Origin: Anaerolineaceae bacterium
Lineage (GTDB): Bacteria; Chloroflexota; Anaerolineae; Anaerolineales; Anaerolineaceae
Assembly: GCA_030653365.1 (NCBI GenBank)
Contig: JAURZL010000010.1
Location: 124,001 to 188,000 of the forward strand
Length of the DNA: 64,000 nucleotides
Direction of reading: 5' to 3'
Translations under genes and position numbers: made by a program
Notes under the pieces: model-generated
Seen by the model: only the letters and a program-made list of their open reading frames with translations
Database searches by the model: none
What the model was told of the DNA's origin: nothing
In this document: positions 12,170-17,760 of the stretch, one piece after another
Layout of the letters: every line of letters starts with the position of its first letter
Numbering within the stretch: position 1 is the stretch's first letter

Positions 12170-12508
12170 TTAAGTATTTCGGTTCTTCTTTAATGGTGCC
12201 GGCTTTCGGAAACCATCCAGAAGGTGTAAGATCGCTAAACCAGGATACTGTTTTAACATGCGTGGCCCAGCATGGCGCATCACTTCTCGAATTTTTTCCC
12301 GCATGGTTTTTTGATAACAATGTGTTGGGCACTTGGCACAGGTTGTCTTCTTCTCCTGATAGGGACATTTTTGCAACCTAAGATGAGTATAATCTTTCAA
12401 AGCCTCACAATCCTCACAAAGCCCATCTGAAATTTCATGATGGTCACGACAATACAACTCAATCATAATGTCAACTGTTTTTTGTTCGCGAAGTAATCTA
12501 GGATCCAT
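12170..12508 (-). CDS. ygbA: YgbA-like nitrous oxide-stimulated promoter family protein
   Basis: This 112-residue basic protein has a conserved cysteine set: YCRDHH, CEDCEAL, KCPYQ and CAKCPTHCY, followed by MREKIREVMRHAGPRM. This matches the family named for E. coli YgbA, whose gene is controlled by the nitric-oxide sensor NsrR. The cysteines suggest metal or Fe-S binding. The molecular function is not known to me. The start overlaps the end of the upstream HAD gene by 11 bp, so it is translationally coupled to it. Confidence 0.8.
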   Translation of the reverse strand: MDPRLLREQKTVDIMIELYCRDHHEISDGLCEDCEALKDYTHLRLQKCPYQEKKTTCAKCPTHCYQKTMREKIREVMRHAGPRMLKQYPGLAILHLLDGFRKPAPLKKNRNT

Positions 12509-13363: not shown

Positions 13364-14314
13364 TTATGGTTTTAATGATTCGTTCTCTCCATTCAGATAA
13401 GATATGATCTTTAATAATGCGTCACTTTTAGGTTCTGTTGCTATTTTCCAAAACGCCACCTGAGCGGATGTAGCAGGAATTCTTCGATGTTGTCCAATGT
13501 AAATATCCTGTGCGAGGTCAAGACCATCCACCTTTACCATGGCGACCTGCCCTTTCACAATTCTTTGAGCGACTAACATCGAAACAAATCCAACCCCAAC
13601 ACCTTCCTGTACAGCGAATGCAATTGCTTCAGAATTTCCCAATGTGAGGACCTTTCGTAGATCATTAATGTCATAACCTTGTTGGGCTAACCCATCGCGC
13701 AGCACCATATAAGAACCGGCGGATGATTCTCTCACAATCAAATTTGCTTTACGCAATTCATCGAGGTTGATACTTTCTCTTCTTGTCCAGGGGTGATTGG
13801 TAGGAACAATCAGAACAAGTGGTTCGGAGATAAATTTATGAAACTCTATATCCGGATGGTAATTGAATACACTTGATACCATAATCTGTGCTTTACCTTC
13901 ATTTAAGAAACGCATAGCATCATTACGATTGCCGACAGTAATGGTTGCCTCCACCTTAGGATATCTTTTTAGAAAGTCTGCCATGAGTGATGGCAATATA
14001 TATTTCCCTGGAGTAGTTGTACAGGCAATCCATAAATGGCCATGAATCTCTTGTTTAAGTGTATCCATCATCTCATCAGCCCGAATAGCAGACAATACCA
14101 AATCTCTCGCCATGGGTAACAGGGTGACACCAGCTTCTGTTAAAGTTATTTTCCTGCCTGACCGGATAAATAGTTGCATACCAAAATGCGTCTCCAGGTT
14201 GTGAATATGTTGAGTCACGCTCGGTTGTGACATATGCAATCGTTTCGCAGCCTGTGAAAAATTTAGAGTCTCAGCTGCAGCCAGAAAGACTCGTAATTGA
14301 TGTGTATCTAACAT
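13364..14314 (-). CDS. LysR-family transcriptional regulator
   Basis: This protein of about 316 residues has an N-terminal winged helix-turn-helix (FLAAAETLNFSQAAKRLHMS, recognition helix SQPSVTQHI) and a periplasmic-binding-protein-like effector domain with the LxxGNSEAIAFAVQEGVGVGF signature common in CysL/CbbR-type LysR proteins. ATG 14314 is chosen because GGAGA lies six bases upstream; the in-frame TTG at 14320 sits against that SD. It is divergent from the multihaem cytochrome and rhodanese genes, and LysR proteins usually control the divergent unit. The effector is unknown. Confidence 0.9.
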   Translation of the reverse strand: MLDTHQLRVFLAAAETLNFSQAAKRLHMSQPSVTQHIHNLETHFGMQLFIRSGRKITLTEAGVTLLPMARDLVLSAIRADEMMDTLKQEIHGHLWIACTTTPGKYILPSLMADFLKRYPKVEATITVGNRNDAMRFLNEGKAQIMVSSVFNYHPDIEFHKFISEPLVLIVPTNHPWTRRESINLDELRKANLIVRESSAGSYMVLRDGLAQQGYDINDLRKVLTLGNSEAIAFAVQEGVGVGFVSMLVAQRIVKGQVAMVKVDGLDLAQDIYIGQHRRIPATSAQVAFWKIATEPKSDALLKIISYLNGENESLKP

Positions 14315-14410
14315 AATCAATCTCCAAAAATTAATATATTAAATTTTATCATGTTTGCCAGGATGATAAGGATTACTTATAGATTCAACATAAAAAATCA
14401 AATATTTACT

Positions 14411-14569: not shown

Positions 14570-14833
14570 ATGAGAAAAATTATTTTAATTATATCCCTTA
14601 GCTTGTCTATGCTATTGCTTGGCGCATGTACAGCTAAAAGCACACCATCAACTGTGCCCGACGAAACCGAAGTTGCCATTTCTCAAGCAACTCCAACAGC
14701 TGTTATACCAGTTGCTTTCGAACCGCCGGTAGACAATTGTGTCGTCTGCCATACAGACAAACAAATGTTGATTGATACGGCAATTGAGGAAGAAGAAGAT
14801 GCTCATGGAGCTGAATCAGAAGGCGTTGGCTGA
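14570..14833 (+). CDS. Multihaem cytochrome c lipoprotein, N-terminal part (ends at in-frame TGA)
   Basis: An ATG preceded by AAGGA opens a signal peptide with lipobox LLGAC (cysteine about residue 22), then a Thr/Pro/Val-rich linker and the first haem motif CVVCH, then an acidic stretch. The frame stops at TGA 14831-14833, yet the same frame continues immediately with ten more CxxCH motifs. The lower part has no export signal of its own, and haem attachment by cytochrome c maturation needs export, so the two parts make sense only as one chain. Explanations are selenocysteine insertion, another recoding, a nonsense mutation or a sequence error. Confidence 0.75.
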   Translation: MRKIILIISLSLSMLLLGACTAKSTPSTVPDETEVAISQATPTAVIPVAFEPPVDNCVVCHTDKQMLIDTAIEEEEDAHGAESEGVG

Positions 14834-14864
14834 GGTGGCTCTGTGGCTCCGTTGGAGCCTTGGG
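14831..14864 (+). promoter_or_regulatory. In-frame TGA followed by a SECIS-like hairpin
   Basis: After the TGA comes GGCTCC (14845-14850), loop GTT, then GGAGCC (14854-14859), a perfect 6-bp stem. The stem can be extended past one mismatch by G-U and G-C pairs. The loop begins 17 bases after the TGA and its first base is G. Bacterial SECIS elements are small hairpins of this kind at about this distance, with a G at the start of the apical loop. A competing reading is that AGGTGG at 14833-14838 acts as a ribosome site for GTG 14843. The structure is seen; the recoding function is inferred. Confidence 0.4.
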
Positions 14865-15943
14865 AAAAAGTTTTGGTTAACGCTGGATTTTTTGAAACTG
14901 AGCATGGTCAAACATCCTGCTCCGCCTGTCATGCTGGAGATTCTTCAGCGACTGAGAAAGATACTGCCCACACTGGTTTAATACAAGCTCCTGATGCCGA
15001 TGCACAAAGAACCTGCGGGAATTGCCACAATGAAATCGTAGTGAGCAATACGAATAGTCTTCATACCACCCAGGCTGGGTATTTCCAGACGATGTATTCA
15101 CGCAGTCTGCCTGAAAACCATGTTGCGTTGGAGGAGATGTTTGGCAATCATTGCCAATCCTGCCACACAACCTGTGGAGACTGCCACATTGCCCAACCAG
15201 ATAGCGTTGGTGGTGGTTTATTAAATGGTCATGAATTTGTAAAAACTCCCCCAATGACTCGCACCTGTACCGCTTGCCATGGTTCACGCGTAGGAAATGA
15301 GTATATGGGCAAAAATGAAGGTATTCCTGGAGATGTTCATTTCCGCCAGGGGCGCATGAATTGTGTTGCCTGCCATGATGGCGCCAGCATGCATGATTCT
15401 GAAGGAAACAATCACCGCTATGAAGGTGAACAGGGACCAAGCTGTGAAAGCTGCCATGATCAAGTCGGTAGAACATCCGATACCATCGTGCAACATCAAA
15501 TCCACCAGGGTGCTCTCTCCTGTCAGGTATGTCATTCCGTCTCCTATACGAGCTGTGACAGTTGCCATGTTGCGATCAGTGAAACAACCGGCAATCCTTT
15601 CTTTAAGACAGCGGCAACCTATATGACATTTTTTATAGGTCGAAACACCCGACAATCCTCAGACAGGCCGTATGAATATGTACCGGTTCGTCATATCCCG
15701 GTTGATCCTGAGAGTTATGCTTATTATGGTGAGGATCTGCTCTCCAATTTCAATTTGCTTCCCAATTGGGCATATGCAACCCCCCATAATATTCAACGCA
15801 ATACGCCACAGAATGAATCCTGTAATTCCTGTCATGGTAATGCTGAAATCTTCCTGACCGCAGATAAAGTCAAACCGGAAGAATTAGAAGCCAACCGGAA
15901 CGTCATCGTGGAGAATGTTCCAGGATTAATTCCGGAACAATAA
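14843..15943 (+). CDS. Multihaem cytochrome c, main part with ten CxxCH motifs
   Basis: This stretch is in the same frame as 14570-14833 and is probably the rest of that protein. CSACH, CGNCH, CQSCH, CGDCH, CTACH, CVACH, CESCH, CQVCH, CDSCH and CNSCH bind ten c-type haems, eleven with the upstream CVVCH. Many extra histidines can serve as distal ligands. CQSCHTTCGDCH packs two motifs closely. The C-terminal quarter is haem-poor except for the last motif. Read independently from GTG 14843 it would lack any signal peptide. As a lipoprotein it would lie on the outer membrane face and move electrons to or from periplasmic or extracellular partners. The following gene encodes a rhodanese lipoprotein, suggesting sulfur chemistry. 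Confidence 0.85.
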   Translation: MAPLEPWEKVLVNAGFFETEHGQTSCSACHAGDSSATEKDTAHTGLIQAPDADAQRTCGNCHNEIVVSNTNSLHTTQAGYFQTMYSRSLPENHVALEEMFGNHCQSCHTTCGDCHIAQPDSVGGGLLNGHEFVKTPPMTRTCTACHGSRVGNEYMGKNEGIPGDVHFRQGRMNCVACHDGASMHDSEGNNHRYEGEQGPSCESCHDQVGRTSDTIVQHQIHQGALSCQVCHSVSYTSCDSCHVAISETTGNPFFKTAATYMTFFIGRNTRQSSDRPYEYVPVRHIPVDPESYAYYGEDLLSNFNLLPNWAYATPHNIQRNTPQNESCNSCHGNAEIFLTADKVKPEELEANRNVIVENVPGLIPEQ

Positions 15944-16014: not shown

Positions 16015-17760
16015 ATGTCTAGAAAATTATATTTACCAATCATGTTAGTAGTAATGTTCGCGATGTTGTTAGGTGCTTGTGCTCCTGCAGCAACCCCAAC
16101 AGCAGAACCCGTCGTAGAAGCTCCTGTTGTTGTTGAAGAGCCGACTACTGTTCCGGTAGTTGAAGAACCTGTTGTTGTCGTTGAAGCTCCTGATTTCCAG
16201 GCGATTTTTACAGAAATCATCGCCAATTATGGAAAAGATAAAGCATACGGCACGATGGCAGCTGACGCACTCAATACTGAATTGATCGAGAATTCCGATC
16301 TTTTTGTAATCGATGTGCGCGAAGCTTCCGAGTTAGAAGCTAACGGCCATATTCCTGGTGCAGTCAATATCCCCGTAAAAACCCTTGCAGATAACCCTGC
16401 TTTATTACCAGCAGATCTTGACACCCCAATCGTGGTTTATTGTAAAAGTGGAACTCGATCGACCTATGCCTGGACTATCTTAAGTGCATTAGGCTACACC
16501 AATGTTCGCAATATGTCAGCCGGTATGGATGGTTGGTTAGCAGCTCAATTACCATTTGAAGAAGGTCTTGCTCCCGCTGAAGAAATAAGCACCGCCATCA
16601 TCGAAAATGAAGCACTGTACATGGCTGTCAAAGATTTCGCCAATAATGCGCCTGAAGGTTGGGCAAACGTTACCAACGTCGATGTCAATGAGATGATGAT
16701 CAATGGTGAAGATTTCGTTCTGATTGATAATCGTCGACCGGATGAATTCGAAGCTGGTTACATTGACACGGCTGTCAGCATTCCTTTAGAGGAAATGATG
16801 TCACGCCTTGATGAAATCGATCCAAGCAAGAAAATCGTTGTATATTGCCGCAGTGGTATTCGAGGTTTGATTGGTGTGATCGCATTACGCATGAATGGAT
16901 ACGATAACGTATTCAACATGGCTGGTGGTTACCTTGGATGGCAAGCTGAAGAACTACCTGTTGTTGGTGCTGCTCCCGATTTCAAAGGGATCTTTGCTGG
17001 CATTATTGCCAACAATGGTCAGGATAAAGGCTATGGAACCATGCCTGCTGATGCACTCAATACGGAACTGATTGAGAATCCTGAACTCTTCGTGATTGAT
17101 GTGCGTGAACCTTCTGAATTGGAAGAGAATGGTCATATTCCTGGTGCAGTCAATATTCCTGTGAAAACCCTTGCGGATAACATGAATTTACTTCCTCAAG
17201 AACTTGATACCCCCATTGTTGTTTATTGCAAAAGTGGTACCCGCTCAACTTATGCCTGGACAATTCTACAAATGTTGGGTTACACCAATGTGCGTAACAT
17301 GTCAGCTGGTATGGATGGTTGGTTAGGTGCACAATTAGGTGCTGAAGAAGGTCTTGCTCCTGCTGAAGAAATCAGCACTGCCATCATTGCTGATGAAAAA
17401 CTCTACATGGCTGTAAAAGATTTCGCCAACAATGCTCCTGAAGGTTGGGCAACCACCAAAAACGTTGATGTGCAAGAAATGTTAATCAATGGCGATGAGT
17501 TCATCCTGGTTGATGTCCGACGTGCTGATGAATTCGCAGCTGGTTATATTGACCCTGCCGTGAATATTCCTTTGGAAGAACTGCTCACCCGAACAGGTGA
17601 AATCGATCCAACTGCTAAGGTTGTTGTTTACTGCAAGAGTGGTATCCGCAGCTTGATCGCTACCATCGCCCTTCGCCTGAACGGTTATGCCGATGCTCTC
17701 AGCATGAGTGGTGGTATCCTCGGCTGGGAAGGTGCTGATCTGCCAGTCGTTACACCATAA
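16015..17760 (+). CDS. Lipoprotein with four tandem rhodanese domains
   Basis: This 581-residue protein has a signal peptide and lipobox LGAC (cysteine at residue 22) and a Val/Pro/Glu-rich linker to about residue 56. Four rhodanese domains follow. Their active-site loops are CKSGTRS (C143), CRSGIRG (C278), CKSGTRS (C405) and CKSGIRS (C540), so all four persulfide cysteines are present. Domains 1-2 and 3-4 form a unit of about 261 residues repeated twice. Rhodaneses carry or transfer sulfane sulfur, and four on one surface lipoprotein could act as a persulfide relay or sulfur sink. It follows an eleven-haem cytochrome in the same orientation and ends in a strong bidirectional terminator. Confidence 0.92.
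   Translation: MSRKLYLPIMLVVMFAMLLGACAPAATPTAEPVVEAPVVVEEPTTVPVVEEPVVVVEAPDFQAIFTEIIANYGKDKAYGTMAADALNTELIENSDLFVIDVREASELEANGHIPGAVNIPVKTLADNPALLPADLDTPIVVYCKSGTRSTYAWTILSALGYTNVRNMSAGMDGWLAAQLPFEEGLAPAEEISTAIIENEALYMAVKDFANNAPEGWANVTNVDVNEMMINGEDFVLIDNRRPDEFEAGYIDTAVSIPLEEMMSRLDEIDPSKKIVVYCRSGIRGLIGVIALRMNGYDNVFNMAGGYLGWQAEELPVVGAAPDFKGIFAGIIANNGQDKGYGTMPADALNTELIENPELFVIDVREPSELEENGHIPGAVNIPVKTLADNMNLLPQELDTPIVVYCKSGTRSTYAWTILQMLGYTNVRNMSAGMDGWLGAQLGAEEGLAPAEEISTAIIADEKLYMAVKDFANNAPEGWATTKNVDVQEMLINGDEFILVDVRRADEFAAGYIDPAVNIPLEELLTRTGEIDPTAKVVVYCKSGIRSLIATIALRLNGYADALSMSGGILGWEGADLPVVTP
16186..17752 (+). repeat. Internal duplication of a two-rhodanese unit
   Basis: Residues about 58-318 and 319-579 are two copies of the same two-domain module. 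They share long identical phrases such as NGHIPGAVNIPVKTLADN and YTNVRNMSAGMDGWL, and near-identical DNA in parts. Within each copy the two rhodanese domains are more distant from each other, so an older domain duplication was followed by a later duplication of the pair, perhaps kept alike by gene conversion. Confidence 0.85.

Follow-up and report, generated by a model that had tools for sequence, protein, structure and literature searches.

The cytochrome gene at 14570-15943 (plus strand) of the window, that is, of the whole 64,000-nucleotide stretch of DNA analysed, is apparently broken by an in-frame stop codon, and comparison with its homologues suggests that it is almost certainly intact. 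SelB-dependent insertion of selenocysteine (Sec) is predicted with very high confidence at the UGA of 14831-14833. By the sequence tests run, and the usual cysteine homologue apart, the product is a selenoprotein. The explanation that best covers all observations, and which we hold to be highly probable, is an intact selenoprotein gene in which SelB directs the insertion of Sec88 and whose product works with a rhodanese lipoprotein. Taken by itself, the cooperation of the cytochrome with this neighbouring rhodanese is considered likely because of the gene context.

The frame 14570-15943 of this Anaerolineaceae bacterium starts as MRKIILIISLSLSMLLLGAC, and its signal peptide (14570-14629) runs up to a lipobox-like LGAC with Cys20. 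Read through codon 88 and compared with its homologues, it would encode a Sec-containing eleven-haem lipoprotein cytochrome of 457 residues, in which the TGA supplies the U of a GVGUGG motif. Haem motif 1, CVVCH (residues 57-61; 14738-14752), is the only one before Sec, and ten further CxxCH motifs at 14918-15835 bring the total in the frame to eleven, one 5' and ten 3' of the TGA. The earlier note had placed the signal peptide, lipobox, first CxxCH, TGA and ten later CxxCH motifs in one frame, and these coordinates are confirmed by direct reading. The protein has the several CxxCH motifs and the export signal of a multihaem c-type cytochrome, and it scores above the Pfam cut-offs of PF22113, PF14522, PF14537 and PF09699. 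Under the standard bacterial code, ORF prediction splits it into two ORFs; since the protein is cut in two in this way, misannotation is likely in many Anaerolineae and their relatives.

The AlphaFold2 model of the cytochrome has a mean pLDDT of 65, with residues 73-95 below 50. A Foldseek search of this model against the PDB gave no match at E 0.001, and the family profile gave just weak cytochrome matches in the PDB, the best at 23.4 bits. Since the model is poor at the Sec loop and the fold and profile searches brought no match and weak matches, respectively, the Sec-to-haem geometry is left without a claim. Nine histidine columns outside the CxxCH motifs are at least 93% conserved over the Sec genes, as against eleven haems, and some haems may have ligands other than histidine. 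A Sec-ligated haem was also considered; nothing connects Sec to any one haem. A plasmid search gave no match.

The first scan of contigs, whose search peptides did not cover the TGA site, revealed 43 homologous loci, and in 42 of them a TGA at the residue-88 column, within a GxGUGG motif, is the only in-frame stop; the sole exception, L006, has the codon CTC. At E 1e-30 the family profile found matches in 78 of 396 genomes of the window's class; the TGA is present in 70 of the 80 match rows, and the ten rows lacking it include distant matches as well as short and cut ones. In a second phylum, that of Syntrophaceae bacterium CG2_30_58_14, matches came from 48 of 395 genomes, with the TGA in 50 of 53 rows. 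In an even sample of Chloroflexota, the phylum of the window, 13 of 400 genomes were matched, G019 among them by a distant match only. A further 60 stretches were taken beside loci found by the profile searches, not beside every match row, and the Sec column was scanned in 103 loci. After removal of duplicates, of distant partial matches (L079, L118, L119) and of cut genes (L116, L168), and with the best gene per locus kept, the first set included, 119 of 125 distinct family genes from Anaerolineae and the second phylum display an in-frame TGA at the site. In 13 of these 119 the TGA is displaced from the aligned column by one to a few codons, positions within six codons being accepted; they belong mostly to a diverged branch of the second phylum, and their proteins read GxGU[GA]G or similar. 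In 118 of the 119 genes a single CxxCH stands 5' of the TGA, in frame and 21-31 residues away, the exception (L087) being a gene cut by a contig end. Locus L115 (G1063:C10) carries two family copies close together, one with TGA and SECIS and the other without the Sec loop. To judge from these alignments, conservation of the TGA at this site is far beyond chance.

The hairpin 3' of the TGA, GGCTCC-GTT-GGAGCC at 14845-14859, consists of arms at 14845-14850 and 14854-14859 and a GTT loop at 14851-14853, with 17 bases from the TGA to the first loop base, G. The earlier note had described this hairpin as SECIS-like and had named RNA folding as a check; its geometry is confirmed, and folding agrees with it, as the 19-nt piece holding the hairpin reaches −10.3 kcal/mol (z −3.64), a value equalled by none of 200 shuffles. 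The bSECIS limits, as given in the accessible part of a 2026 review, are a loop of 3-9 nt, a stem of 4-16 bp, a distance of 16-37 nt from the UGA, a G in the first two loop positions and an MFE of −7.5 or lower (PMC13188914), and the hairpin of the window lies within all of them with its loop of 3, stem of 6, G first, 17 nt and −10.3 kcal/mol. The same limits hold for 104 of the 119 TGA genes, as compared to 70 of 2351 random in-frame downstream positions in the same loci (3.0%) and one of six TGA-less genes; the other 15 TGA genes fail the strict test for an uninterrupted stem.

The hairpin was also followed across the family at the level of codons and of base pairs. Codons 92-96 (GTG GCT CCG TTG GAG) stand alone among 146 conserved columns of the 43 first-set TGA genes, window included, in showing zero codon entropy, taken at each of these five codons over the genes that retain the residue, 40 to 43 of the 43. 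Conserved columns have a median of 1.0 bit, which rises to 1.77 over the 65 columns with at least fourfold degeneracy. The six stem pairs at fixed spacing are formed in 648 of 714 cells (91%) over the 119 TGA genes. In 500 shuffles the mean was 536 cells and the highest value 557, and with the partner slid the pairs formed in 37-52%. As the sequences are related, the shuffles overstate independence; the evidence from the invariant codons and from the losses is unaffected by this. All six pairs are present in 94 of the 119 genes, in 15 different stem-loop sequences with stem variants such as GCCTCC/GGAGGC, GGAGCC/GGCTCC, CCCTCC/GGAGGG and AACTCC/GGAGTT, and 87 of the 94 have a GTT loop. Among 27 first-set sequences alone, covariation is thin, with one pair showing a two-sided change. 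An Rfam search of the window at the gathering thresholds gave no match. As these comparisons indicate, the hairpin 3' of the TGA is a SECIS.

A nonsense mutation or sequencing error, leaving a dead or misread gene, would account for the single TGA in an otherwise open frame and has a parallel in the extra TAA of each of two related genes (G096, G896), and is nonetheless practically excluded by a TGA that recurs in nearly all distinct genes, across many assemblies and two phyla, by haem motifs retained on both sides of it and by five invariant codons lying exactly at the hairpin. Termination at the TGA followed by reinitiation at GTG 14843, to give a separate ten-haem protein, is very improbable. 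It draws on AGGTGG and a GTG just 3' of the TGA and on codon 92 being GTG in 42 of the 43 first-set TGA genes; however, some relatives (L090, L115, L137) have GTC or GTA as codon 92, and the covarying hairpin would be left unexplained. Moreover, attachment of c-type haem is extracytoplasmic, whereas an export signal is missing from the downstream piece, and the one haem motif upstream is kept in frame, at 21-31 residues from the TGA, in 118 of the 119 TGA genes.

The genome of the Anaerolineaceae bacterium, whose source assembly has a rated completeness of 100% and contamination of 6.18%, was searched for selA, selB, selC and selD, the check that the earlier note had proposed, and all four were found: selB at 335.7 bits (cut-off 242), selA at 541.9 bits (cut-off 268), selD at 348.2 bits (cut-off 125) and a tRNA-Sec (selC) with anticodon TCA. 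The selD gene (L063; G000:C14:307774-308703, minus strand) has an in-frame TGA of its own, in SNCAG-U-ASKLN, followed by a GUA-loop hairpin, and itself looks like a selenoprotein gene. Among the first-set genomes selA was matched in 41 of 43, in 40 above the cut-off, and the genome carrying the Sec-less L006 is one of those matched; in the second phylum it was matched in 41 of 45 TGA genomes as compared to 27 of 30 background genomes. The two first-set and four second-phylum TGA genomes in which selA was not found are perhaps incomplete bins. As selA is common in both phyla anyway (322 of 400 Chloroflexota genomes), it is uninformative as a discriminator and provides consistency, not proof. 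Taken with the conserved TGA and the covarying, codon-invariant hairpin, the full machinery in the genome strongly supports the Sec reading that the earlier note had put forward.

The six TGA-less genes have CTC, TGG, TTG, CAC, GTG and TAC at the site, so that cysteine occupies the Sec column in none of them; a seventh gene lacks the loop. Cysteine homologues exist for many selenoprotein families, and they are usual, not required. The expectation of Cys, Sec or TGA in this column was hence borne out for the TGA and not for cysteine. L111 (G884:C4), a close relative, has TGG at the site with the hairpin intact, and because its sister genes L123 and L124 have the TGA, this looks like a recent loss of Sec; a tryptophan codon in a close strain, which the earlier note had regarded as evidence against Sec, was therefore seen, in a setting that suggests loss. 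No hairpin within the SECIS model is left in the other five genes. On the FastTree tree, rooted by midpoint and with low support for the placement of L117 (0.235), parsimony gives five changes with Sec at the root. Because none of the six losses goes to cysteine, selenium chemistry itself is suggested to be needed, the Sec-less protein keeping an electron-transfer role only.

Readthrough of the UGA as tryptophan or another ordinary residue, with the hairpin acting as a readthrough enhancer and not as a SECIS, would agree with the TGG and intact hairpin of L111 and with the absence of cysteine among the six TGA-less genes. It is nevertheless improbable, as the hairpin lies within the published SECIS limits, the Sec machinery is encoded in the genome along with a Sec-type SelD whose gene bears a similar hairpin, and the other five TGA-less genes no longer have a hairpin within these limits. 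Insertion of Sec at codon 88 is thus the reading retained below.

Directly downstream of the cytochrome gene, at 16015-17760 (plus strand), lies a gene for a lipoprotein with four rhodanese domains (four stretches matching Pfam PF00581). The active-site loop of every domain reads C[KR]SG[TI]R. With a profile built from these four domains, a same-strand rhodanese was located near 99 of 101 Sec genes having enough flank (at least 1200 bases upstream and at least 2300 downstream) as compared to one of six TGA-less genes, and near 85 of 86 TGA genes when 1700 upstream bases were required. The Fisher p value of this association is ~1e-6, with kinship ignored and three TGA-less loci counted whatever their flanks. 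The sole TGA-less gene with a rhodanese is L117, a cytochrome-rhodanese fusion, and the Sec genes without a rhodanese neighbour are L080 and L143. Pfam confirmed the rhodanese in L121, L130, L145, L149 and L152. In three Sec genes (L077, L125, L144) the rhodanese domains lie upstream in the same open frame, where an internal start is possible; L139 was rejected as a rhodanese fusion, its frame having many other stops. No rhodanese was found within ~3 kb on either side of L111, and its sister gene L124 has one upstream. Across the genes compared, loss of Sec tends to go with loss of the neighbouring rhodanese. The tie of a rhodanese to this Sec cytochrome is strong; it does not appear in the earlier note and is new here.

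On the other side of the cytochrome gene, a divergent LysR regulator (13364-14320, minus strand) has the selenium metabolism-associated LysR family (NF040786) as its best NCBIfam match, at 201.8 bits against a cut-off of 250; the LysR of L152 reaches 247.2 bits, also below the cut-off. A LysR match is found in 35 of the 43 first-set loci, some with only 36-41% identity and positioned elsewhere. Near the LysR gene, 12170-12508 of the window encodes a YgbA family protein (PF11756, nitrous oxide-stimulated promoter), a homologue of which lies near the LysR gene of L006. The place expected for the rhodanese in L006 (L006:4344-5286) holds an opposite-strand ORF with several CxxCH motifs, NapC/NrfH-like by eye. 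Downstream of the rhodanese in L152, a UshA/SoxB-like protein (L152:4996-5904) has the UshA-like (seleno)protein NF041198 as its best model, at 165.4 bits against a cut-off of 275.

In the mechanism envisaged, SelB on the GUU-loop hairpin would deliver Sec-tRNA at the UGA, and the product, exported as a lipoprotein with eleven haems, would have Sec88 placed between the first haem and the second. On the rhodanese, sulfane sulfur would be bound as the persulfide of a cysteine, the selenolate of Sec88 would attack this persulfide, and the haem chain would supply or remove electrons; the pair would reduce, or in reverse form, sulfane sulfur (polysulfide, thiosulfate, sulfur) outside the membrane. 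Selenolate chemistry on rhodanese-bound sulfane sulfur, with electrons passing via the haems, is inferred here tentatively. A haem-wired selenoenzyme family of two phyla, in which Sec and the ten-haem chain act on the persulfide of a dedicated extracytoplasmic rhodanese, is a rather speculative proposal; if true, the cytochrome-rhodanese pair would be an extracellular sulfane-sulfur reductase or oxidase.

The usual chemistry of rhodaneses is that of sulfane sulfur, and the partner is kept across both phyla, which argues weakly against a selenite or metal role of the cytochrome; the argument is weak since rhodaneses are able to carry selenium too. That the Sec protein serves the reduction of selenite or tellurite, or extracellular electron transfer in general, in place of sulfane sulfur chemistry is possible, though short of probable. 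The LysR neighbour has a selenium-associated family as its nearest model, though with a score below the cut-off, and the portions available of two papers on Geobacter report that ExtKL, clustered with a rhodanese-like protein, is proposed for selenite reduction (PMC5877670) and that its cluster contributes to metal reduction (PMC6148476). The rhodanese link leads to a testable function.

The table of 119 selenoprotein families in the accessible part of the 2026 review lists ExtKL, GSU2204 and an octahaem family as Sec multihaem cytochromes and names no other multihaem cytochrome, some entries being without a motif or hypothetical proteins (PMC13188914). In open-access literature without preprints, searched for Sec with multihaem cytochromes, Anaerolineae/Chloroflexi, undecaheme and rhodanese, no description of an eleven-haem Sec cytochrome family was found among the matches listed (in two of the searches, the best 25 of 759 and the best 25 of 229 papers). 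The family did not turn up in the sources searched; Sec multihaem cytochromes as such are already known.

GSU2204 (NF041027) resembles the window protein as a predicted selenoprotein with CxxCH, and octahaem tetrathionate reductase (Otr, TIGR04315) as a multihaem protein with a sulfur-chemistry name and a Sec member taken from GenBank annotation, according to the part of the review table consulted (PMC13188914). The former, however, is a CXXCH outer-membrane beta-barrel family and the latter has eight haems, and the window cytochrome matched neither at E 1. Weak multihaem similarity was recorded to OmcA/MtrC, DmsE and the GSU2203 decahaem family at 31.6, 30.4 and 21.8 bits, far under the cut-offs of 209.3, 192.2 and 325, respectively; to our knowledge, these decahaem cytochromes are without Sec. 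UXX-star is another kind of protein and is not known to be a multihaem cytochrome. The motifs of UXX-star family 2 (NF041211; GxGU) and HgcB (NF040864; GVGU) resemble the first part of GVGUGG, HgcB being entered as a ferredoxin, not a multihaem cytochrome, in the accessible table (PMC13188914), and the window cytochrome matched neither model at E 1. ExtH (NF040901) is likewise a rhodanese lipoprotein clustered with a Sec cytochrome, and its model gives 17.9 bits for the window rhodanese and 75.5 for the second-phylum neighbour in L149 against a cut-off of 200.

ExtKL (NF040886) is also a multihaem c-type cytochrome with one predicted Sec. ExtKL has five haems followed by Sec in GHxxPDGU[PA], as read from 9 of 12 loci (the other three were read in another frame), whereas in the window family, with its eleven haems, Sec follows haem 1 and precedes haem 2 in GxGU[GA]G. 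The window cytochrome did not match NF040886 (cut-off 250 bits) at E 1, and the window family profile scores ExtKL frames at ~12 bits or less. An hhalign comparison reached 97.8% probability, with a template that included the three wrongly framed loci; it aligned the haem motifs and not the Sec site, and is not read as homology of the Sec sites. ExtKL was found in 28 of 277 second-phylum genomes, in 27 above the cut-off; one of them (G715) is also among the 48 with the window family, not all of which need be included in the 277. Ten-haem ORFs in two ExtKL loci (L175, L177) score 46.6 and 53.6 bits against the window family profile and are possible distant Sec-less relatives. Adjoining pairs of ExtKL-family matches without an internal TGA occur at G469:C12:96118-98740 and G645:C132:36179-38365.

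The Geobacter ExtKL cluster includes a rhodanese-family lipoprotein and usually a LysR regulator, as stated in the available portions of the two papers (PMC5877670, PMC6148476). Because no rhodanese lies within the 1.5 kb flanks of the 12 ExtKL loci, a general rule linking Sec cytochromes to rhodaneses is not borne out in these loci; the Geobacter cluster nonetheless hints at a common chemistry, to judge from what is accessible of its description (PMC5877670). Beside ExtKL, GSU2204 and the octahaem family, the cytochrome of the window would add one selenoprotein family, spread over many uncultured anaerobes, to the few Sec multihaem cytochromes.
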